Shown: piece after piece, positions 10,028 to 30,010 of the stretch | Layout of the letters: each line of letters begins with the position of its first letter | How positions within the stretch are numbered: position 1 is the first letter of the stretch | Virus record (IMG/VR): IMGVR_UViG_3300023184_003700 | Location: 1-30,880 of that record | From: a virus | DNA: 30,880 nucleotides | Reading direction: 5' to 3' (one strand) | Made by a program: the position numbers and the translations under genes | The notes under the pieces: model-generated | Seen by the model: only the letters and a program-made list of their open reading frames with translations | What the model was told of the DNA's origin: nothing | Database searches by the model: none

Positions 10028-11422
10028 TTATTTTATTTTACCCATTAAATCTTTCATTCTTTTGAATTGAGGATTTTCGTAAGCCTTAGCTTCAGATAAT
10101 ACCTCAGTTGAAGAACTTGATGGAGTGTTAGAGATTTTAGTCGCTACTGATTCAGTTACTGTTGTTTTATTACTTAATTCAGATGCGATTGAACTATATA
10201 AGCCCTTAGACTCATTTAGTGTAGAAACTGTATCAAATCTCTTTAATATATTCAATTTCTCTTGTTTTGTAGTTGAGTGTTCAGTGAACAAACGTGTAGC
10301 GTAAGCTAAGTTTGCGTTGAATACAGCAACTTCGTTTAATTTATCTTTGAATAATACTAACGCCTTTTTATATTCAGCATTTTGTTTTTTCAAAGTTTCA
10401 ACTTCTTCATTGATAGACCCAGAACCTGCTTTATACATCTTTTTAGATTTTAAACCAGCTCTATCTTGTCCACCTTTATCCCCGTGTATGTTAGATTTAG
10501 TTCTTCTAGCCTCAGTGAATTCTTCTTCACCTACTTCAACCTCTTCTTTAGGTTCAACTTTTTTAGCAGATTTTAAACCAGGAAGAGCTTCCTCTTTTGG
10601 TTCTACTTTTTTAGCTGATTTAAGACCAGGTAAAGCTTCTTCTTTAGGTTCAACTTTTTTAGCAGATTTTAAACCAGGAAGAGCTTCCTCTTTTGGTTCT
10701 ACTTTTTTAGCTGATTTAAGACCAGGTAAAGCTTCTTCATTAACTTTATCTTCAAACGGAGCATCTTCATCTTCATCTAACTCGATTTCATATAAAGATT
10801 CTTCCTCCATAGGTGATTCTTCTTCCATGTATGATTCCTCATCCATAGGTGATTCCTCTTCCATAGACGTTTCTTCACCGTCATCATCAAGTTTGATGAT
10901 ATATTCGTTATCACCGTCGTTAACTTCGAGTTTGTTTCCGTCTTTTTTAACTACTATACCATCTTCTGGTTTCATAGCTTTGAATACTTTAAGAACTTCA
11001 TCGTCTGAAGCACCTGTCATATCCATAACGTCGTCGTCTTCACTACCTTCTTCTGATTCAGGAGATTCGTCACCAAATCCACCGAAAGATGGTTCAGCTT
11101 CTTCATCACCTTCTTCAGAATCCATAGATTCGTCGTCAGTTGTCTCGTCGTTGTTATCAAGGTTGTCTACATTTTCATCGTCAGAAGTTTCAGCATCTGC
11201 TGTTTCTTCTTCGCCTGACATATCGTCTTTTTCCTTTTCTTCAGGTTCAGTACCTTCTTCGTCAGAAGTTACGTCTTCCTCATCTTCTAATGATTCTTTA
11301 AGCAAGTCGCTTAGTTCTTGTTTCATTGTTGAAGCAAGTATACCTTTTGCGTTGTGCTTAACTGCTTCTTCAAGTGTATTAATTTGAAGTAACGCTTGTT
11401 CTAAAATTGATTTTTCGCTCAT
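10028..11422 (-). CDS. 22: Prohead core scaffold protein, T4 gp22-like
   Basis: A 464-residue protein in the gp22 position between protease and capsid genes. Residues 45-215 are extremely acidic and low in complexity. Four identical 16-residue repeats (EALPGLKSAKKVEPKE) follow at about 231-294. The C-terminal 140 residues are helical (EEVETLKKQNAEYKKALVLF onward), the part that resembles scaffold cores. Many I/L-x-E sites (SINE, KLNE, TLNE) fit degradation by gp21 during maturation. The end, RMKDLMGKIK, resembles the end of gp21. It is longer than T4 gp22 (269 residues), mostly because of the acidic part and the repeats. Function follows from position and composition more than from direct similarity. 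Confidence 0.8.
   Translation of the reverse strand: MSEKSILEQALLQINTLEEAVKHNAKGILASTMKQELSDLLKESLEDEEDVTSDEEGTEPEEKEKDDMSGEEETADAETSDDENVDNLDNNDETTDDESMDSEEGDEEAEPSFGGFGDESPESEEGSEDDDVMDMTGASDDEVLKVFKAMKPEDGIVVKKDGNKLEVNDGDNEYIIKLDDDGEETSMEEESPMDEESYMEEESPMEEESLYEIELDEDEDAPFEDKVNEEALPGLKSAKKVEPKEEALPGLKSAKKVEPKEEALPGLKSAKKVEPKEEALPGLKSAKKVEPKEEVEVGEEEFTEARRTKSNIHGDKGGQDRAGLKSKKMYKAGSGSINEEVETLKKQNAEYKKALVLFKDKLNEVAVFNANLAYATRLFTEHSTTKQEKLNILKRFDTVSTLNESKGLYSSIASELSNKTTVTESVATKISNTPSSSSTEVLSEAKAYENPQFKRMKDLMGKIK
10545..10736 (-). repeat. Tandem repeat, 2 x 96 bp (4 x 48 bp) in the scaffold gene
   Basis: Four 48-base units lie in the order A-B-A-B. The two A units are identical to each other and so are the two B units. 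A and B differ at eight positions, all synonymous, so all four encode the same 16 residues. This points to an old 48-base duplication followed by a recent 96-base one. Confidence 0.9.
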
Positions 11423-21309: not shown

Positions 21310-22089
21310 CTATTGTGTTATGGACAATTTTTTATCTAATATGTCCGTTTTTAATTTTAAAAGTTTCTCAATGTACCCGTTTCTTCGTAATAGTTTGAAT
21401 ACTAAATTTTCATAACTGTATTCACCTCCAGACTCAAGACCACATTGTCTAAACTCTTTAATTTTAAGTCTTAATTTTTCGATTTTTGGTACTATATCTC
21501 CGTTATTCCCGTTTTTAACTAAAGAATCAATCTTTTTAGCATATTCTTCAGCCTTACCTAATATTTTATTATCGTCAATATTCGGGGTTTCTCGTTTTGG
21601 TTCAACTTCCCATTTATCATGTAAGACTGAATATACCCCTGAGGAAACATGTGGTTCGTCAACATCTTGAACATACAATTCAACATCATAACCTTTAATT
21701 ACAATTTCATGTTTTTCATTCCAAACATTCTTTTTGGCGTCGAAAAATTCTTTAATAATTGTATGTAAAGCTACGGAATCCTTTTTGTGGTTTTTATTTA
21801 TTTCTTCAAAATCAATAAGAATGTGTAAATCAACGTCCGAAAAATTGGACCAATTATAATTTGCTAATGAACCTGTTAAAACAATATCATGTACAAAAAA
21901 CTCAACTCCAAGAGTTCCGATAAACTCATCAGATATTTCTAATAGTTTTTCTCTAATTTCAGAACGCATCTTTATACCGTCCTCTCCTTCTTCAAAAATT
22001 TGTGTAGATAGAGTATCTTTAGGTTTAAAAGAATTAACAATCTTCTTATCCCCTTCTTTGTCTTCAATTAATTCCTCGAAAAGACTCAT
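21310..22089 (-). CDS. Nucleotidyltransferase-fold protein
   Basis: A 259-residue protein. LTGSLANYNWSNFSDVDLHI at 71-90 is the pol-beta/MNT-type signature: GS (73-74), then the two metal-binding Asp in DVD (85-87). A third acid is likely in GYDVELYV (about 137). This fold transfers NMP or AMP groups to nucleotides, RNA or proteins; the target is not known here. It lies downstream of a KTSC gene and overlaps it by four bases (ATGA). Homologues in T4-like phages are common and uncharacterised. Toxin-type and RNA-end-modifying activity are both possible. Confidence 0.8.
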   Translation of the reverse strand: MSLFEELIEDKEGDKKIVNSFKPKDTLSTQIFEEGEDGIKMRSEIREKLLEISDEFIGTLGVEFFVHDIVLTGSLANYNWSNFSDVDLHILIDFEEINKNHKKDSVALHTIIKEFFDAKKNVWNEKHEIVIKGYDVELYVQDVDEPHVSSGVYSVLHDKWEVEPKRETPNIDDNKILGKAEEYAKKIDSLVKNGNNGDIVPKIEKLRLKIKEFRQCGLESGGEYSYENLVFKLLRRNGYIEKLLKLKTDILDKKLSITQ

Positions 22090-22331
22090 TTGATTTTTTT
22101 ATATTTATGAACTTTAGCGATATTCTCGTTAAAGTGTTTTCCGTGGGATTCGGCAAGTCTAAACTTGGTGAACTTAGTCCAAGGAACTTTATTATACTCA
22201 TAAATAGAGCCGTTATTGAAAGTAACGGTTAAGTCTTCGGTTTCCGTATTAAAATGTGCGGATTTTAAATTAGATGAGTTTATGTCTACCATAATCATCT
22301 TACCATCAATTTTTTCTGATACTATTGCCAT
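22086..22331 (-). CDS. KTSC-domain protein 1
   Basis: An 81-residue protein. IYEYNKVPWTKFTKFRLAES followed by HGKHFNENI fits the KTSC domain: a beta-hairpin with 'Y.Y..VP', then a helix 'F..A.S.G..fn..I'. The domain is named for its C-terminal residues; in phages and bacteria it is often next to DNA or RNA enzymes. The stop overlaps the start of the nucleotidyltransferase gene, so the pair is probably co-translated. A close paralogue is just upstream, across a terminator. The element TATTTATT lies about 16 bases before the ATG. Confidence 0.75.
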   Translation of the reverse strand: MAIVSEKIDGKMIMVDINSSNLKSAHFNTETEDLTVTFNNGSIYEYNKVPWTKFTKFRLAESHGKHFNENIAKVHKYKKIK

Positions 22332-22396: not shown

Positions 22397-22648
22397 TTAA
22401 ATACTTTTAACTCGTCTTGACTTGTAACGATTTACAATGTTCAAGTTTAGGAACGTACCTTGTGATTTTGCCAATCTAAACTTTGTAAAAATTGTAGATG
22501 GAACTCCTTGATACTCATAAGATTTACCTGTTGTAAAGGTTACTCTCATGTTTTCTTTTAAAGTGTCGTAAGATGCGGCCTTTAAACTTGTGGAAGAGAT
22601 TGAAACTTCAATCATCTTACCATTGATTTTTTCTTTTTTAACTGACAT
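22397..22648 (-). CDS. KTSC-domain protein 2
   Basis: An 83-residue paralogue of the gene downstream. SYEYQGVPSTIFTKFRLAKS followed by QGTFLNLNI matches the KTSC pattern. The N-terminus MSVKKEKINGKMIEVSISSTS lines up with that of paralogue 1 (KIDGKMIMVDINSS), so the two arose by tandem duplication. The ATG at 22648 is chosen instead of the one at 22681, as an inverted repeat sits exactly between. This gene has its own terminator. The function of KTSC domains is not established to my knowledge. Confidence 0.75.
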   Translation of the reverse strand: MSVKKEKINGKMIEVSISSTSLKAASYDTLKENMRVTFTTGKSYEYQGVPSTIFTKFRLAKSQGTFLNLNIVNRYKSRRVKSI

Positions 22649-22649
22649 G

Positions 22650-22679
22650 GTGTAATATTTTAATAGTATAAAATTACAC
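22650..22679 (-). promoter_or_regulatory. Inverted repeat next to the KTSC 2 start codon
   Basis: GTGTAAT-AT-TTTA (left arm) pairs with TAAAATTACAC (right arm), 11 base pairs with a two-base bulge. It ends one base before the ATG, so it could be an operator or an RNA hairpin that blocks initiation. Confidence 0.5.
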
Positions 22680-22718
22680 AAAATAATTCAAATAAAAAAA
22701 TTTTACGGAATTATTTTT

Positions 22719-23087
22719 TTAATTTAATGAAATTAAACGTTCCAAAGACTTTTTCTTGTCAATCGGTAATGTCAATGTTAGAACACCGTTTTCTACTTTA
22801 CCTTCAATGTCTTTTTCTTTTACATCGTCAGGAATTGTATAGGATTTCACAAAACTACCAACAAAATGATGAACTTCGTCCTTTTCATTTTTTTCAAATG
22901 AAATTCTTAATGTTCCTTCTTTAGTTGAAATTTTTAAGTCGTCCTTAGCTAATCCTGGTACAGACAATGAAACTGTATATTCAGTTTCGGTCTTGTTAAT
23001 TTTAGTTTCAGGAGTTCTAAGGAATTTCGATGACTCTAATAGGTTATCAAAATTCTGAAAAAATGGGTCTTTAAATAATGTAATCAT
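22719..23087 (-). CDS. hsp20: Small heat-shock protein, Hsp20 family
   Basis: A 122-residue holdase of the alpha-crystallin family, which binds unfolded proteins. The core domain covers about 28-115: TVSLSVPGLAKDDLKISTKE, then GSFVKSYTIPDDV and VENGVLTLTLP, all typical of Hsp20. The N-terminal arm is short and the C-terminal tail is only a few residues (ERLISLN), with I-S-L as a weak form of the IxI anchor. It diverges from the ClpC gene across 155 bases with two matched dyads. Hsp20 is known in T4-like cyanophages; here it may help keep viral or host proteins soluble for the unfoldase next door. Confidence 0.92.
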   Translation of the reverse strand: MITLFKDPFFQNFDNLLESSKFLRTPETKINKTETEYTVSLSVPGLAKDDLKISTKEGTLRISFEKNEKDEVHHFVGSFVKSYTIPDDVKEKDIEGKVENGVLTLTLPIDKKKSLERLISLN

Positions 23088-23141
23088 AGTTTTATATTTT
23101 TATTCACTATAAATCAAATTTTTTGCCATTTGTTATTTTTA

Positions 23142-23152
23142 GACAATATGTC
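23142..23152. promoter_or_regulatory. Operator-like dyad 1, GACA-N3-TGTC
   Basis: GACAATATGTC is a near-perfect dyad in the divergent hsp20/clpC region. Its centre lies 31 bases, about three helical turns, from a second dyad of the same type. Confidence 0.5.
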
Positions 23153-23172
23153 AGTATAACAAATATTTTTTT

Positions 23173-23183
23173 GACATTTTGTC
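23173..23183. promoter_or_regulatory. Operator-like dyad 2, GACA-N3-TGTC
   Basis: GACATTTTGTC is the partner of dyad 1 and ends five bases before the -33 box of the clpC promoter, a place where a bound repressor could block polymerase. Confidence 0.5.
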
Positions 23184-23188
23184 TTTGT

Positions 23189-23220
23189 TTTGTTTTTTAG
23201 AATAATTTATGTTATGTTTG
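23189..23220 (+). promoter_or_regulatory. Host-type promoter for clpC
   Basis: TTTG (23189-23192), 20 bases, then TATGTTTG (23213-23220): a full match to the Bacteroidota -33/-7 pattern. The leader is about 15-20 bases and shows no Shine-Dalgarno sequence. Confidence 0.75.
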
Positions 23221-23242
23221 TATTGAAATAAACTTATAACAC

Positions 23243-25258
23243 ATGTCAGTAGATTTTTTTGAAGATGGACCAACAACAAATCCTAAAAAATTAAGGAAAG
23301 GGTCAAACACACCAATATTAGATAACTTCTCAAGAGACCTAATTAAATTGGCGGAAGAAGGTAAAATAGATCCTATCATTGGTAGAGATAAAGAAGTAAA
23401 AAGAATTGCTCAAATTCTTTCTCGTAAAAAGAAAAACAACGCAGTTATTGTAGGAGAAGCTGGTGTAGGTAAATCTGCGTTAGTGGAGAAATTAGCATTA
23501 ATGATTGTTAAAGGAGATTGTCCAACAAATTTATTAGATAAAAGAATTATGTCGTTAGATTTAACTTCATTAGTTGCCGGTACAAAATATCGTGGTCAAT
23601 TTGAAGAGAGAATTAAAGCGATATTAACTGAATTACAAGAAGCTCCTAATGTAATTGTCTTCATTGATGAATTACATACTATGGTTGGTGCGGGTAATGC
23701 TAGCGGTTCTATGGATGCTGCTAATATTTTAAAACCAGCATTAGCAAGAGGTGAGATGCAATGTATTGGGGCAACAACGTTAGATGAATACAAAAAAAGT
23801 ATTGAGAAAGACGCGGCTCTCGTTAGAAGATTTCAAAAAATAATCTTAAGTGAACCTACAGCGAATGAAACAATTGAAATATTAAAAAATATTCAAGAGT
23901 CATATGAAACATTTCATAGAGTTCAATATGAACCTGAGGTAATTGAAACTATTGTTAAATTATCTTATAGATATATTACCGATAGACAATTTCCCGATAA
24001 GGCAATTGATGTTTTAGATGAATTAGGTTCAGAAAAAAGAGTTTCAACTAGAGTACCCGAATCGATTGAAAAATTAAAAAAACAAATCGATGAAGTAAAA
24101 GAAAAAAAATTACAAGTTGTTAAACAACAAATTTATGAACAAGCGGCTAAATTAAGAGATGAAGAAAAAAAATTGTTTGATAAACTTGAGAAAGAAAAAT
24201 TAAATTGGACCGAAAAACAAAAAAGTAATAAAATTCCAGTTACAATTGATGATGTATATGAAATAATTTCACAAATAACCGGCGTACCGATTACAAAATT
24301 AGATAGTAAAGAAACACAAAAGTTATTAAAAATGGAAGAAATTATTTCTTCAAAAGTAATTGGACAAGAAGAGGCTATTTCATCAATATCAAAAGCAATA
24401 AGAAGAAATCGTGTCGGTATTAAAGACGCAAATAAACCAATTGGTTCATTTATCTTTTTAGGTTCCACTGGTGTTGGTAAAACATTTTTAGCTAAAACAT
24501 TGGCGGACACATTATTCGGTGACCCTGATAAAATCATTCGTGTTGACATGAGTGAATATATGGAAAAACATAACGTATCTAAATTGATTGGTTCTCCTCC
24601 AGGTTATGTTGGGTATGATGAAGGAGGTCAATTGACTGAGAAAGTTAAAAATAACCCATTCTCTGTGATTTTATTTGATGAAATTGAGAAGGCACATAAA
24701 GACGTGTTTAATATCCTACTTCAAATTTTAGATGAAGGACATTTAACGGATTCATTTGGTAGAAAAATTAATTTTACAAATTGTCTTGTTATTATGACAT
24801 CTAATATTGGAGCAAAAAAAGTTTCTGAATTTGGAGGAGGAGTTGGGTTTAACACTTCGTCAAGTGAACAACAAAAATATGAAGTGAGAAAGACAATGAT
24901 TCAAAAGGCCCTTAAACAACAATTCAATCCTGAGTTTTTAAATCGTATCGATGATATTGTTTTATTTAATTCTTTAAGTGAAGATGTTTTAAAACAAATT
25001 ATCAACATTGAAATTTCTAAATTAATCAGTAGATTAAAAGATAAAAATTATAAAATTAATTTTGATAAAACGGTTATTGCTAGAATTTTTGAATTAAACT
25101 CACAGGAAGAATATGGTGCCAGACCAATAAAAAGAATCATTCAAAATTTATGTGAAGACTTCTTAAGTGAAGAAATATTAAGAGGTACTATTTTAGAAAA
25201 TGAAAACATTACTTTAAAATATAAAGACGAGAAATTAACAATTACCAAAAAAAGTTAA
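23243..25258 (+). CDS. clpC: ClpC-like AAA+ unfoldase lacking the N-terminal domain
   Basis: A 671-residue protein with two AAA+ rings. D1: Walker A GEAGVGKS (71-78), Walker B VIVFIDE (137-143). D2: Walker A GSTGVGKT (407-414), Walker B VILFDE (475-480), pore loop GYVGYDE. The middle domain is short and holds a UVR-like helix ([16 protein letters not shown], 296-311), as in ClpC and not ClpB. The loop before the last subdomain carries VGF (534-536), the tripeptide ClpC uses to dock on ClpP, absent from ClpB. The usual two-repeat N-terminal domain for adaptors is missing; only about 25 residues precede D1. It would thus unfold proteins, perhaps for host ClpP, with altered target choice. It is divergent from hsp20. 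Confidence 0.9.
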
Positions 25259-25656: not shown

Positions 25657-25686
25657 GGGGTTGTGAAATACCAACCCCTATTTTTT
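25657..25686 (+). terminator. Rho-independent terminator after the lipoprotein gene
   Basis: GGGGTTG pairs perfectly with CAACCCC around eight bases, followed by TATTTTTT. The kinase gene begins 18 bases later. Confidence 0.85.
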
Positions 25687-25703: not shown

Positions 25704-26129
25704 ATGGATACAGTCGAAAAACAAGGTGAATTAATATTATTACGAGGATTACCTGGTTCAGGTAAATCAACATTAGCAAAAATTATATTACAAGTTAGAA
25801 GTACAGATGAACCTGAGGTTTTATCTGCCGACGATTTCTTCATTAATGAAAATGGTGAATATGATTTTGATTCACAAAAAATAAAAGAAGCACATAACTA
25901 TTGTCAATTTAGATGTTCAGAAAGAATGAGACAACAAAAAGTAAGAATAGTTGTGGCAAATACTTTCACGCAAGAATGGGAAATGGATGAATATTTCAAA
26001 ATGGCAGAAAGGTACAATTACAGAGTTCATACCGTAATTGTTGAGAATAGACATGGTAATGAAAATATTCACGGGGTTCCCGAAGATAAACTCCAACAAA
26101 TGAAGAATAGATTTCAAATAAAACTTTAA
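25704..26129 (+). CDS. P-loop polynucleotide kinase-like protein
   Basis: A 141-residue kinase. GLPGSGKST (15-23) is the P-loop; SADDFF (41-46) holds the acidic residues that activate the 5'-OH; AH at 63-64 and VANTFTQEWE (84-93) are typical of the PNK-like/NEDD4-binding-protein-2-like group. T4 Pnkp has a C-terminal phosphatase domain; this one ends at the kinase. Its likely reaction is phosphorylation of RNA 5'-OH ends so that a ligase can seal them. The stop overlaps the next start (TAATG), tying it to the ligase operon. It could act on DNA or on a small molecule instead. Confidence 0.8.
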   Translation: MDTVEKQGELILLRGLPGSGKSTLAKIILQVRSTDEPEVLSADDFFINENGEYDFDSQKIKEAHNYCQFRCSERMRQQKVRIVVANTFTQEWEMDEYFKMAERYNYRVHTVIVENRHGNENIHGVPEDKLQQMKNRFQIKL

Positions 26130-26371
26130 TGAGTCAATTTATTTCTTCTTTTATTGAATCCGTAAATCCAAAACCAAAGATGAAATTTCACGCAAACCTA
26201 CATAAAAACCAATGGTCATTTTATCCATTACCATTTGCTTATTTATATTTTGAAACTTGTAATCCCGATTCTCATGTTCCTTTTTTAAAAAACAAAATAT
26301 GTGGAGTATATTTGTCTTTTAATTGGTTAAAGTGGACTTACAATATTGGATTACACAAAACAATAAACTAA
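26129..26371 (+). CDS. Small conserved-looking protein in the RNA-repair operon
   Basis: An 80-residue protein rich in aromatic residues (FYPLPFAYLYFETCN, then YLSFNWLKWTY). No domain is recognised. It overlaps both neighbours by one base (TAATG twice), so kinase, this protein and ligase form one translationally coupled set. This argues for a working link to RNA repair, such as a partner or a substrate-binding subunit. The frame does not look like a shadow: both real genes around it are in other frames and its ends fit exactly. Confidence 0.65.
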   Translation: MSQFISSFIESVNPKPKMKFHANLHKNQWSFYPLPFAYLYFETCNPDSHVPFLKNKICGVYLSFNWLKWTYNIGLHKTIN

Positions 26372-27441
26372 TGTTAGAAATTTTAGAGAAATATTATATT
26401 GATGGTTTGTTACATAAACAAACACATCCTACTAAAGATTTGACTATATGGAATTATTCTCCTAAAGTTCAATACGAAAGATTGTGGGATGAAATAACTA
26501 TTCAATGCCGAGGGTTAGTTACTAATTCTAAAGGTGACATTGTGGCAAGACCATTTAAAAAATTTTTTAATTACGAAGAACATAAACCTGAAGATATTCC
26601 AAATGAAGATTATGTTGTCTATGAAAAGATGGACGGATCATTAGGTATTCTTTTTAATTATGAGAATGAATGGATAATGGCAACTCGTGGTTCGTTCACA
26701 TCACCACAAGCAATTAAAGGAAAAGAAATTCTTGATAGACACGATATCAGTTCTTGGAGAAAAGATAACACATATTTGTTTGAAATTATTTATCCTGAAA
26801 ATAGAATTGTTGTTGATTATGGTAATGAAGAAAAATTAGTTGTTCTTGGTGCTTTTCATACTGAAACTGGTTATGAAATACCAGATAGTAGTTTGTTTTG
26901 GACACAAGACTCAGGATTTGAAGTTGTTACAACATACAAAACATGGGGAGAATCATATGACTTACTCAAAGAAGAAATAAGTAAAGATAGAGAAGGATAT
27001 GTAATTAAATTTAAGAATGGTTTTCGTATGAAAATCAAAGGAGAAGAATACAAAAGATTACATAAAATTTTAACAAACATATCTAATCGTGATATATGGG
27101 AATATTTGAAAGATGATAAATCATTTGATGAATTACTTGAAAGAGTTCCCGATGAATTTAACGATTGGGTTAAAACCACAATTAGAGATTTAAAATATGC
27201 TTGTTTTCAATTAAGAGAAACCGCAGGAAAATTACATGATGGTTTTAGATATGGAAAGTTTGGTGATAGAGACCCTGAACCAACAAAAAAAGAATTTGCG
27301 GAATTTGTAATGAAACAACAAGAAGTTTTAAGACCAATTATGTTCGCTATGTGGAATAATAATAATGAAACAGTTGATAAAATAATTTGGAAATTGATAC
27401 GACCTAAATTTGAAAAACCATTTAAGAATAATGAAAATTAA
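26371..27441 (+). CDS. rnl1: RNA ligase, T4 Rnl1-like
   Basis: A 356-residue ATP-dependent ligase that joins 5'-phosphate and 3'-OH RNA ends. Motif I is YEKMDGS with the nucleophile Lys at 86; motif IV is EGYVIKFKNG and motif V RMKIKGEEYKRL. A C-terminal helical domain follows, as in T4 Rnl1 (374 residues), where it gives tRNA specificity. The start is the ATG at 26371, on the TAATG overlap, in preference to a non-ATG start at 26323. With the kinase upstream it forms the T4-type pair that repairs tRNA cut by host anticodon nucleases. The last 11 bases overlap the next gene. Confidence 0.9.
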   Translation: MLEILEKYYIDGLLHKQTHPTKDLTIWNYSPKVQYERLWDEITIQCRGLVTNSKGDIVARPFKKFFNYEEHKPEDIPNEDYVVYEKMDGSLGILFNYENEWIMATRGSFTSPQAIKGKEILDRHDISSWRKDNTYLFEIIYPENRIVVDYGNEEKLVVLGAFHTETGYEIPDSSLFWTQDSGFEVVTTYKTWGESYDLLKEEISKDREGYVIKFKNGFRMKIKGEEYKRLHKILTNISNRDIWEYLKDDKSFDELLERVPDEFNDWVKTTIRDLKYACFQLRETAGKLHDGFRYGKFGDRDPEPTKKEFAEFVMKQQEVLRPIMFAMWNNNNETVDKIIWKLIRPKFEKPFKNNEN

Positions 27442-27913
27442 TAATAAACTTCGTCTTTATCTAGACGATATAAGAACTCCAATTGCGAACGATTGGATAG
27501 TTGCAAGAAACTATGACGAATTTGTTTCGCAAATAAAATTACATGGATTAGGTAATTTTGAAGTTATTTCCTTAGACCACGATTTAGGTGAAGGTGCCAT
27601 GGTGGAGTATTACACAAATGTTAAAAATAATTACATATTAGATTATAATAATATAAGTGAAAGAACTGGTATGGACTGTTGTAGGTATTTGGTGGCTGAA
27701 AGTATGAATGAAAGAATACCCCTACCCCAAATTTACATACATTCAGCAAACCCGATTGGGTCGGCTAATATGATGGGATATATTAACAATTATTCAATGA
27801 ATTGTAGTTTACCCCAAACTTGTATACGAGTAAAAATTGAACATACAATAGATGATAGTCACATGTTATCACCAGAGGAAAGGAAAGCTAAATGGGACAA
27901 AAGTCAGAAATAA
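27431..27913 (+). CDS. Cyclic-phosphate processing receiver-like (cpRec) protein
   Basis: A 160-residue protein. LYLDDIRTP (9-17), SLDHDLG (47-53) and HSANPIGSANM (104-114) form the pattern of the cpRec domain, a receiver-like fold described from genome context as handling 2',3'-cyclic phosphate RNA ends. The acidic pocket (Asp 12/13, Asp 49/51) and the His are kept. It overlaps the ligase gene by 11 bases, so the operon ends with it. As the kinase here has no phosphatase domain, this protein could supply the missing end-healing step. That is inference; a sensor role is the alternative. The ATG at 27431 is preferred to a TTG at 27410. Confidence 0.75.
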   Translation: MKINNKLRLYLDDIRTPIANDWIVARNYDEFVSQIKLHGLGNFEVISLDHDLGEGAMVEYYTNVKNNYILDYNNISERTGMDCCRYLVAESMNERIPLPQIYIHSANPIGSANMMGYINNYSMNCSLPQTCIRVKIEHTIDDSHMLSPEERKAKWDKSQK

Positions 27914-27976: not shown

Positions 27977-28327
27977 ATGACTTACAACAAAAAAACGCGC
28001 ACGCCGTACAGAAAACTCTACATCAAAGGAAAATACGAAGACTTCAATGATTTTTATGATGAAAATAAAGAAAAAGTTTATAAAAATATTATAGAAGTTT
28101 TTGAAGGTTTTACTAACACAAATAAAAGAGTTTTAAGTTTATACGTTCAAGCAATCATAAACGGGGTTGAATGGGATAGTGAATTTATTTTTAAAAAAAA
28201 TGAAACAAATGTTTTAAATGATGATATTTTACCATTTTTTTTAAAAAGAGAAGATTACGAAACATGTGCTCAAATAAAAAAATTATCGGAACAGTTGACA
28301 AATAAAAGAGAATTAGTTAAATTATAA
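27977..28327 (+). CDS. Small protein with a UVR-like C-terminal helix pair
   Basis: A 116-residue protein. The N-terminal 85 residues are an unknown alpha/beta domain (VLSLYVQAIINGVEWDSEFI). The end, FFLKREDYETCAQIKKLSEQ, fits the UVR pattern 'EdYE.aA.lrd.i..L', the helical hairpin found in UvrB, UvrC, McsA and the ClpC middle domain. The usual second Ala is Cys. As the phage ClpC also has a UVR-like helix, this may be an adaptor for it, but the motif is short and the link is only suggestive. It has its own promoter and a terminator shared with the convergent gene. Confidence 0.6.
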   Translation: MTYNKKTRTPYRKLYIKGKYEDFNDFYDENKEKVYKNIIEVFEGFTNTNKRVLSLYVQAIINGVEWDSEFIFKKNETNVLNDDILPFFLKREDYETCAQIKKLSEQLTNKRELVKL

Positions 28328-28363: not shown

Positions 28364-28395
28364 ATCCTCGGAGTTCTTACTTCGGGGATTTTTTT
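28364..28395. terminator. Bidirectional terminator between convergent genes
   Basis: ATCCTCGGAGT pairs with ACTTCGGGGAT (11 pairs, some G-T) around TCTT, followed by seven T. It closes the UVR-like gene and touches the stop codon of the minus-strand secreted protein. Confidence 0.85.
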
Positions 28396-30010
28396 ATAAT
28401 ACCATTCTACTACCAATCAAGAAGTTACTTAAGAAATCTGAATTAGGTTTAGTATTTCCACTTAATTTATAATTGAAACTAAGTCCGAATCTTTTACTTA
28501 ACTTATAATCAAATGAACTACCAATTAAAAATCCCATATGTCTATTAACTGTGGATACTCCTGTAACACTATTCCAAGACAATGGTGAGAACATCGTAAA
28601 CACTTGTGGAGATATTGTTAGTTTCTTTGAATATACGTAAGGTTTGGTCCAAAACGCAATTGCTGAAGATGCCATATTATAATCAAATCCACCATTATCA
28701 TTTTTAAGGAATAAGTTAATTACACCGACATTGTAACCAAACGTCCCCTTTTTTGGTGTTGGTTTAATCCAAGTATATCCTAATAAATTCATGTAATTTC
28801 CCGCCAAATAAGCAAATGCGGTTCCATATGAATGTATAGCATCTAATTGACCATCTTTGGTCATTGCCATTTTAGTATATCCACCAGTAGTAACAATTGA
28901 ACTCAAATTACTATTCACCACCAAACCCGCACTATAACTTTCATCACCAGCCATAGATGATTTACTAATACCTAACGATATTGATGCCAAATATTTACCC
29001 ACACTAGCCTCAGCAACAGTTATATCTGACGCTAATAATGTTGGGTTTGTTACTTCTTGTTTTTTCTTTTTTTCTTCTTCTTTCTTTTTCTTTTCTTCCT
29101 CTTTTTTCTTTTCCTCGTCTTTCTTTTCTTCCGATTTCTTTTCTTCTTTTTTTTCTTCCGTTTTCTTTTCTTCTGATTTTTTCTCCTCAGTTTTACTTTC
29201 TTCTTTCTTTTCTTCTTGTTTTGTTTCAGTCTTTTTTTCTTCTTGTTTTTGTTCGGTTTTAGATTCAGTTTTGGATTCTGATTTTTGTTCAGTTGACCCT
29301 CCTCCACTTTTACTTTCACTACTTGAAGATGAACTACCACCACTACTACTTCCTGAAGAAGATGAACTTCCACTTGCCGGTGGTGGAGATGATGATGACC
29401 CACCACTGGCAGGTGGAGGTGGTGGTGGAGCACTTGCTGGTGGTGTAGGTGGAGCCGCCGCAGAACTTGCGGCACTACTTGCCGCTCCACTAGCAGCACC
29501 ACTTGCCGATGAACTTGCGGCAGACGATGCAGCACCACTTGCGGCGGAACTAGCAGCAGACGAAGCAGCACCACTTGCGGCAGAACTTGCGGCACTACCA
29601 GCAGCATTTGACGCAGCACTTGCGGCAGCTTTAGCGGCAGCATCTGAGGCGGCCTTTGCTGCGGCATCGGCGGCGGCTTTGGCCGCGGCGTCAGCAGCTG
29701 CTTTAGCGGCAGCATCAGCGGCAGCTTTAGCTGCAGCTTCTTGTGCTAATCTTATCGCATCGTTTTGTGGACATGGTGTAGCAAATATAGAATTAACCCA
29801 TACTTGGAAAGCACCACTATTCATATCTGCTAATGTAACTATTTTTGATTTACCTCTAATAACGGCTATAGTTTGATTTTGACCGAAAGGAATTGTAACC
29901 ACGTAAACTTTATTGTCACATGGGTCAATGTATGTTTGTGTTATGGTACTTTGGCCAAATGATTTAACACAAAAAAATAATATCAGGAGAGAGATAATAT
30001 ATTTTTTCAT
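28394..30010 (-). CDS. Exported protein with Ala-rich linker and predicted beta-barrel
   Basis: A 538-residue protein. A signal peptide (1-19, ending SFG before Gln) is followed by a small domain (21-88, with Cys 31 and Cys 80). Then comes a very long low-complexity part: AAAKAAAD repeats (91-185, rigid helix), Pro/Gly/Ser (186-240) and Glu/Lys (240-320). Residues 325-538 are alternating amphipathic strands (ASISLGISKS, GYNVGVINLFL, FGLSFNYKLSG), like an outer-membrane barrel of 8-10 strands. Local G+C is far above the surrounding sequence in the Ala region. It overlaps the upstream gene by one base. Such a protein is uncommon in phages; it may alter the host envelope or act in lysis. Confidence 0.7.
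   Translation of the reverse strand: MKKYIISLLILFFCVKSFGQSTITQTYIDPCDNKVYVVTIPFGQNQTIAVIRGKSKIVTLADMNSGAFQVWVNSIFATPCPQNDAIRLAQEAAAKAAADAAAKAAADAAAKAAADAAAKAASDAAAKAAASAASNAAGSAASSAASGAASSAASSAASGAASSAASSSASGAASGAASSAASSAAAPPTPPASAPPPPPPASGGSSSSPPPASGSSSSSGSSSGGSSSSSSESKSGGGSTEQKSESKTESKTEQKQEEKKTETKQEEKKEESKTEEKKSEEKKTEEKKEEKKSEEKKDEEKKKEEEKKKKEEEKKKKQEVTNPTLLASDITVAEASVGKYLASISLGISKSSMAGDESYSAGLVVNSNLSSIVTTGGYTKMAMTKDGQLDAIHSYGTAFAYLAGNYMNLLGYTWIKPTPKKGTFGYNVGVINLFLKNDNGGFDYNMASSAIAFWTKPYVYSKKLTISPQVFTMFSPLSWNSVTGVSTVNRHMGFLIGSSFDYKLSKRFGLSFNYKLSGNTKPNSDFLSNFLIGSRMVL

Follow-up and report, generated by a model that had tools for sequence, protein, structure and literature searches.

Phage RNA repair by a ligase, a kinase, and a cyclic-phosphate processing receiver (cREC) protein is, as an overall idea, already in the literature. 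Iyer and co-workers gave the cREC domain its name and predicted its activity (PMC7824862), and the protein is predicted to resolve cyclic ends so that ATP-dependent RNA ligases can act (PMC7824862; PMC9503650). In the V5/Mydo-type neighborhood, described in 2022, a T4-like tRNA ligase lies with cREC, a nucleotide kinase, a sirtuin, and MazG (PMC9503650, section 3.7.3), and a calcineurin-like phosphoesterase is sometimes added (PMC9503650). Klebsiella phage KB57 carries ligase, cREC, and kinase in that order, followed by Sir2; the arrangement in Escherichia phage PMBT16 differs from it and reads ligase, cREC, Sir2, and kinase-phosphoesterase. Moreover, the ligase adjoins the kinase in Pseudomonas phage K8, Vibrio phage 5P1b, and Acinetobacter phage Liucustia, the last of which also has a phosphoesterase beside them. 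The T4 pathway is organized differently, as T4 Pnkp (PseT) combines the kinase and the phosphatase in a single polypeptide, and pseT does not adjoin rnlA.

The operon described here lies in a 30,880-base virus record (the window, meaning the whole stretch of DNA analyzed) with T4-type capsid, portal, prohead protease, and terminase genes. The terminase shares no more than about 28% identity with those of isolates, among which Microcystis phage Mel-JY01 and Flavobacterium phages come closest, and the phage that carries the operon is a large T4-like phage of an uncultivated T4-like group. Four successive genes overlap by 1, 1, and 11 bases (Table 1), and together with a 116-aa ORF they make up a stretch bounded by two terminator-like hairpins; 5 such sites were found by pattern scan versus 1.0 expected. 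The four genes with their coordinates and overlaps held on recomputation, and the gene families were those guessed in an initial annotation made from the bare sequence. The 116-aa ORF had no family match in Pfam and PHROG searches. The overlaps probably couple translation, such that the enzymes are made together.

Table 1. Features of the operon and its boundaries in the window
Feature	Coordinates	Strand	Basis
Terminator-like hairpin, directly upstream of the operon	25657..25678	+	pattern scan
Kinase, polynucleotide-kinase-like, stand-alone, 141 aa	25704..26129	+	AAA_33, PHROG 2071, PHROG 505
Small accessory ORF, 80 aa, leader plus core	26129..26371	+	conservation among related contigs
Rnl1-type RNA ligase, 356 aa, catalytic K86	26371..27441	+	PF09511, PHROG 562, PDB T4 Rnl1
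cREC protein, 160 aa	27431..27913	+	PF20274
116-aa ORF, possible fifth member	27977..28327	+	3' of cREC in most relatives
Terminator-like hairpin, closes the unit	28364..28389	+	pattern scan

The same gene order is kept in about 45 related IMG/VR contigs; indeed, all those with the small ORF preserve it as far as the contig reaches, a few insertions excepted. Median pairwise dN/dS was 0.21 for the small ORF; the kinase had 0.14 and cREC 0.17. The conserved order and the purifying selection acting on the small ORF show that the four-gene set goes beyond chance. The window resembles the V5/Mydo type in that the three enzyme families share one neighborhood and the kinase subfamily is identical. 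It differs in gene order, in having no coupled sirtuin, in an extra optional small protein, and in belonging to another, uncultivated T4-like phage group. Nor is the arrangement itself novel, as neighborhoods of ligase, cREC, and kinase are published (PMC9503650) and one is present in KB57. Thus, the grouping was already known, and what we describe is a variant without sirtuin in a new phage group. Like T4, the window pairs an Rnl1-type ligase that has the same catalytic residues with a 5'-kinase-like protein; unlike T4, it has a stand-alone kinase from a divergent subfamily, along with cREC. A split RNA-repair set unlike that of T4, as the initial annotation proposed, with the kinase separate from any phosphatase, is well supported by family membership, fold, synteny, and the fact that the three enzyme families also occur together, independently, in unrelated phages; the answer to host anticodon nucleases that it attached to the set is a prediction.

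The kinase is a polynucleotide kinase by its modeled fold and its context, with a predicted acceptor. Its sequence matches Pfam AAA_33 (2e-15), PHROG 2071, named "ATPase" (1e-40), and PHROG 505, the T4-type polynucleotide kinase (2e-9). The AF2 model (pLDDT 76.5) found the polynucleotide kinases of Clostridium thermocellum and T4 as its top PDB folds, with an E value of 2e-5 and a query TM of 0.59 to 0.64. The fold, P-loop, and catalytic Asp of a 5'-OH polynucleotide kinase are all present, and the P-loop residues K21/S22 as well as D43 and R116 are invariant in the alignment of relatives. The phosphatase half of T4 Pnkp had been called missing, and this is so: the 141-aa protein aligns only to positions 3 to 140 of PHROG 505 and does not combine kinase and 3'-phosphatase in one chain. 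The sequence may also bear some likeness to the human N4BP2-type PNK domains. N4BP2 has a PNK domain (PMC6598757).

The acceptor site of the kinase stands apart. In T4 polynucleotide kinase, R38 and D85 are what we take to be the acceptor-site residues, and in the window kinase they are replaced by F46 and N86, a pattern common to the whole PHROG-2071-like subfamily. The acceptor may differ because the counterparts of R38 and D85 are missing. Moreover, the kinase model also matches the folds of O-phosphoseryl-tRNA kinase and APS kinase. Perhaps, then, the substrate is not a 5'-OH RNA end but, for example, a small molecule or a different group on RNA. We consider this unlikely, as polynucleotide kinases rank first among the fold matches and kinases of this family adjoin RNA ligases in several unrelated phages.

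The ligase matches PF09511 (3e-20; 73.6 bits versus a cutoff of 28.3), PHROG 562 (7e-70), and, as a solved relative, T4 Rnl1 (PDB; 5e-14), and it keeps the Rnl1 catalytic residues R47, K86, E138, E208, K221, and K223. Its score of 75.2 bits against TIGR02308, the T4 RnlA equivalog, lies below the cutoff of 242.25. The catalytic core is near-constant among close relatives, and at least three unlike types of C-terminal domain are attached to it; some relatives carry a 43-residue insert. To judge from these sequences, the C-terminal variety may reflect changing RNA specificity. The T4 RnlA annotation lists both RNA repair and tail-fiber attachment, and PHROG 562 bears both names, such that the set could maintain or process phage or host RNA, or the ligase could aid tail-fiber attachment, rather than reverse nuclease damage. 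The names of PHROG 562 derive from T4 only, however, and tail-fiber attachment leaves the coupled kinase and cREC unexplained. Moreover, some relatives have lost the operon or keep a reduced form of it, as expected for a defense-dependent function. We therefore regard these housekeeping and structural roles as very unlikely.

The ligase gene is interrupted or replaced in some relatives. In L014 to L017 and L058 to L060 (L058, 6247-7068 and 7523-8368), it is split directly after the FEIIY motif by about 1.1 kb with a GIY-YIG-like ORF, and a LAGLIDADG-like ORF lies just 5' of the gene. On this pattern, an intron or a homing element is predicted to have inserted at a site that is conserved; a group I intron was considered, and Rfam found none there. 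The ligase of L149 (2740-4001) has been replaced, with about 25 first codons left and joined to an ORF that by eye is SGNH-hydrolase-like and is followed by one that is oxygenase-like, and the kinase and cREC are retained. Extra ORFs in L056 (7302-8132), L079 (6200-6994), and L063 (7788-8516) are SGNH-like, GIY-YIG-like, or of no recognized kind. As extra ORFs have entered there in relatives, the ligase-cREC junction and the junction downstream of cREC appear to be insertion spots.

The last enzyme matches PF20274 (5e-22) and has the conserved acidic receiver residues of the cREC family. Residues D12, D13, D49, D51, H104, and N107 are invariant, and these together with H50 are kept in relatives down to 36 to 40% identity. 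A literature search found no experiment on cREC activity, and we know of none. The family has been termed experimentally uncharacterized (PMC9503650). Those who described it also proposed cyclic ADP-ribose (cADPR) or a 2',3'-cyclic nucleotide as substrate (PMC7824862), and cREC might act mainly on such small signaling molecules, including cyclic ADP-ribose derivatives, to blunt host immune signaling, sharing an operon with RNA repair only as a fellow counterdefense gene. When the best 80 cREC loci were surveyed for neighbors within about 4 kb, 43 had no detected kinase or ligase. These loci, together with three that keep kinase and cREC but no ligase, indicate that cREC can act outside ligation. 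Moreover, a macro-domain gene lies about 3 kb from cREC in Cellulophaga phage phi17:2_18. Against a main role in signaling, cREC directly overlaps the ligase gene in the window and its relatives and adjoins both ligase and kinase in KB57, and we think that role improbable here.

We favor a function in RNA-end healing and sealing, and the operon probably mends host-cut tRNA. A host defense nuclease would cut RNA, most likely in the tRNA anticodon loop, and leave a 5'-OH and a 2',3'-cyclic phosphate. The kinase would phosphorylate the 5'-OH, and cREC would open or remove the cyclic phosphate, possibly with a calcineurin-like phosphoesterase that is encoded elsewhere in most of these phages, for example at 1501-2250 in L088. 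The Rnl1-type ligase would then self-adenylate on K86 and seal the break. From the enzyme families and their company, we infer the reactions at the RNA ends, tRNA as the target, and the role in counterdefense.

Other end-healing genes were sought in 8 longer contigs from this phage group, whose completeness as genomes is not established, such that absences from them are weak evidence. Calcineurin-like phosphoesterases were present in 7 of the 8, about 20 to 25 kb from the cassette in those with coordinates compared, and on a 335-kb contig four tRNA genes lie near the phosphoesterase at 87.8 kb. Sirtuin (PF02146) was found in none of these possibly incomplete genomes, nor in the operon, and KptA, 2H, and RlaP likewise had no match in the 8 contigs. 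The phosphatase half of T4-type Pnkp was also absent from them, as PHROG 505 matches cover the kinase part only. Because 2H, KptA, sirtuin, RlaP, and the Pnkp phosphatase went unmatched, the candidates for end healing are cREC and the phosphoesterase. The overlap of cREC with the ligase gene in phages with no detected 2H, KptA, or sirtuin makes this a clean set for testing the predicted cyclic-phosphate processing.

The phosphoesterase also appears within a cassette. In L147, kinase, phosphoesterase (PHROG 547, 2e-43), ligase, and cREC are separate genes in that order, and the calcineurin-like phosphoesterase occupies the slot of the small ORF between kinase and ligase. PHROG 8238, which may be compared with bacterial Pnkp (TIGR04075), is matched at its two ends by the kinase (4-109) and the ligase (428-711), and its middle (195-252) is weakly matched by phosphoesterases, as expected for a natural kinase-phosphoesterase-ligase fusion. 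Unlike such fusions, the window operon has no phosphoesterase.

The small ORF is conserved in about 45 related contigs, with 42 loci in viral contigs at 64 to 86% identity, always between kinase and ligase, and this conservation indicates that it is a real gene. It divides into a 17-aa leader (26129-26179; MSQFIxSF...) and a 63-aa core (26180-26371) that begins at an invariant Met18. The leader, MS[QK]F[IF]xS[FY], overlies the stop codon of the kinase gene and is still present at loci without the core; conversely, L079 and L082/L083 encode the core as a gene of its own, and L141 has a core with no leader. The protein had no Pfam, PHROG, or NCBIfam match, either alone or with 18 or 3 further members, and no match among isolate phages or in GTDB genomes. 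Its AF2 model is weak (pLDDT 58), with four beta strands at low confidence, and a structure search with this weak model gave no significant fold match. Two identities were discarded. The protein has no similarity to T4 PseT.1, the small gene product encoded beside pseT, and zinc binding through C44, C58, and H49 does not agree with the divergent L141, L160, and L162, which lack both cysteines.

The 80-residue protein had been proposed as a new member of the pathway, and the survey weakens this view. The full set with a recognizable core was found at 14 of the best 80 cREC loci and a truncated remnant at one (L156), kinase, ligase, and cREC without the core at 12, and kinase and cREC without the ligase at three. 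The core is thus absent from many otherwise intact cassettes, and leader and core are separable. On the kinase tree, parsimony gave six changes in core presence, at least three of them forced by well-supported branches; at least three gains or losses of the core thus occurred while the kinase stayed. We regard the small protein as an optional accessory, not as a required step. The core might still be a new kind of accessory to RNA repair, such as an adaptor that binds RNA or the ligase, determines the substrate, and is swapped in and out of the slot between kinase and ligase, in a cassette whose cREC heals cyclic ends in phages without 2H, KptA, or sirtuin, a combination that we hold to be quite unlikely. 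Taken with the leader and the variable C-terminal domain of the ligase, the optional core suggests that the cassette is re-tuned, perhaps to different host nucleases.

Core-less loci keep a short leader ORF (L156, 2889-3002; also L145, L150, L137, L142, L161, L140, and L151) just 3' of the kinase stop, which overlaps the ligase start in another frame, and the ligase of such loci seems to start at GTG or another nearby codon. A conserved protein tail in these leader-only ORFs was considered and dropped, as its motif IRKIL.RWF is the other-frame shadow of LEKYY..G in the ligase. Because that motif mirrors the ligase frame, only the MS[QK]F[IF]xS[FY] start counts.

A chaperone pair, Hsp20 (minus strand) and a ClpB-like ATPase (plus strand), adjoins the operon at 22719-25258 and lies beside it in all relatives with enough flank, with Hsp20 absent in a few. 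Upstream are two KTSC-domain proteins (22086-22331 and 22397-22681, minus strand); KTSC possibly supports translation or ribosome rescue in jumbo phages (PMC7824862). A polymerase-beta-type nucleotidyltransferase (PHROG 36119; 21310-22089, minus strand) is conserved near the operon on the opposite strand, and we rejected it as RlaP, since it had no PF10127 match and the strand is opposite. Between the capsid and protease genes lies an acidic protein (10028-11422, minus strand) with repeated EALPGLKSAKKVEPK units. Finally, the protein at 28394-30010 (minus strand) has long Ala/Ser, Pro/Ser, and Lys/Glu low-complexity stretches, and by eye its start is signal-peptide-like and its C terminus beta-rich.
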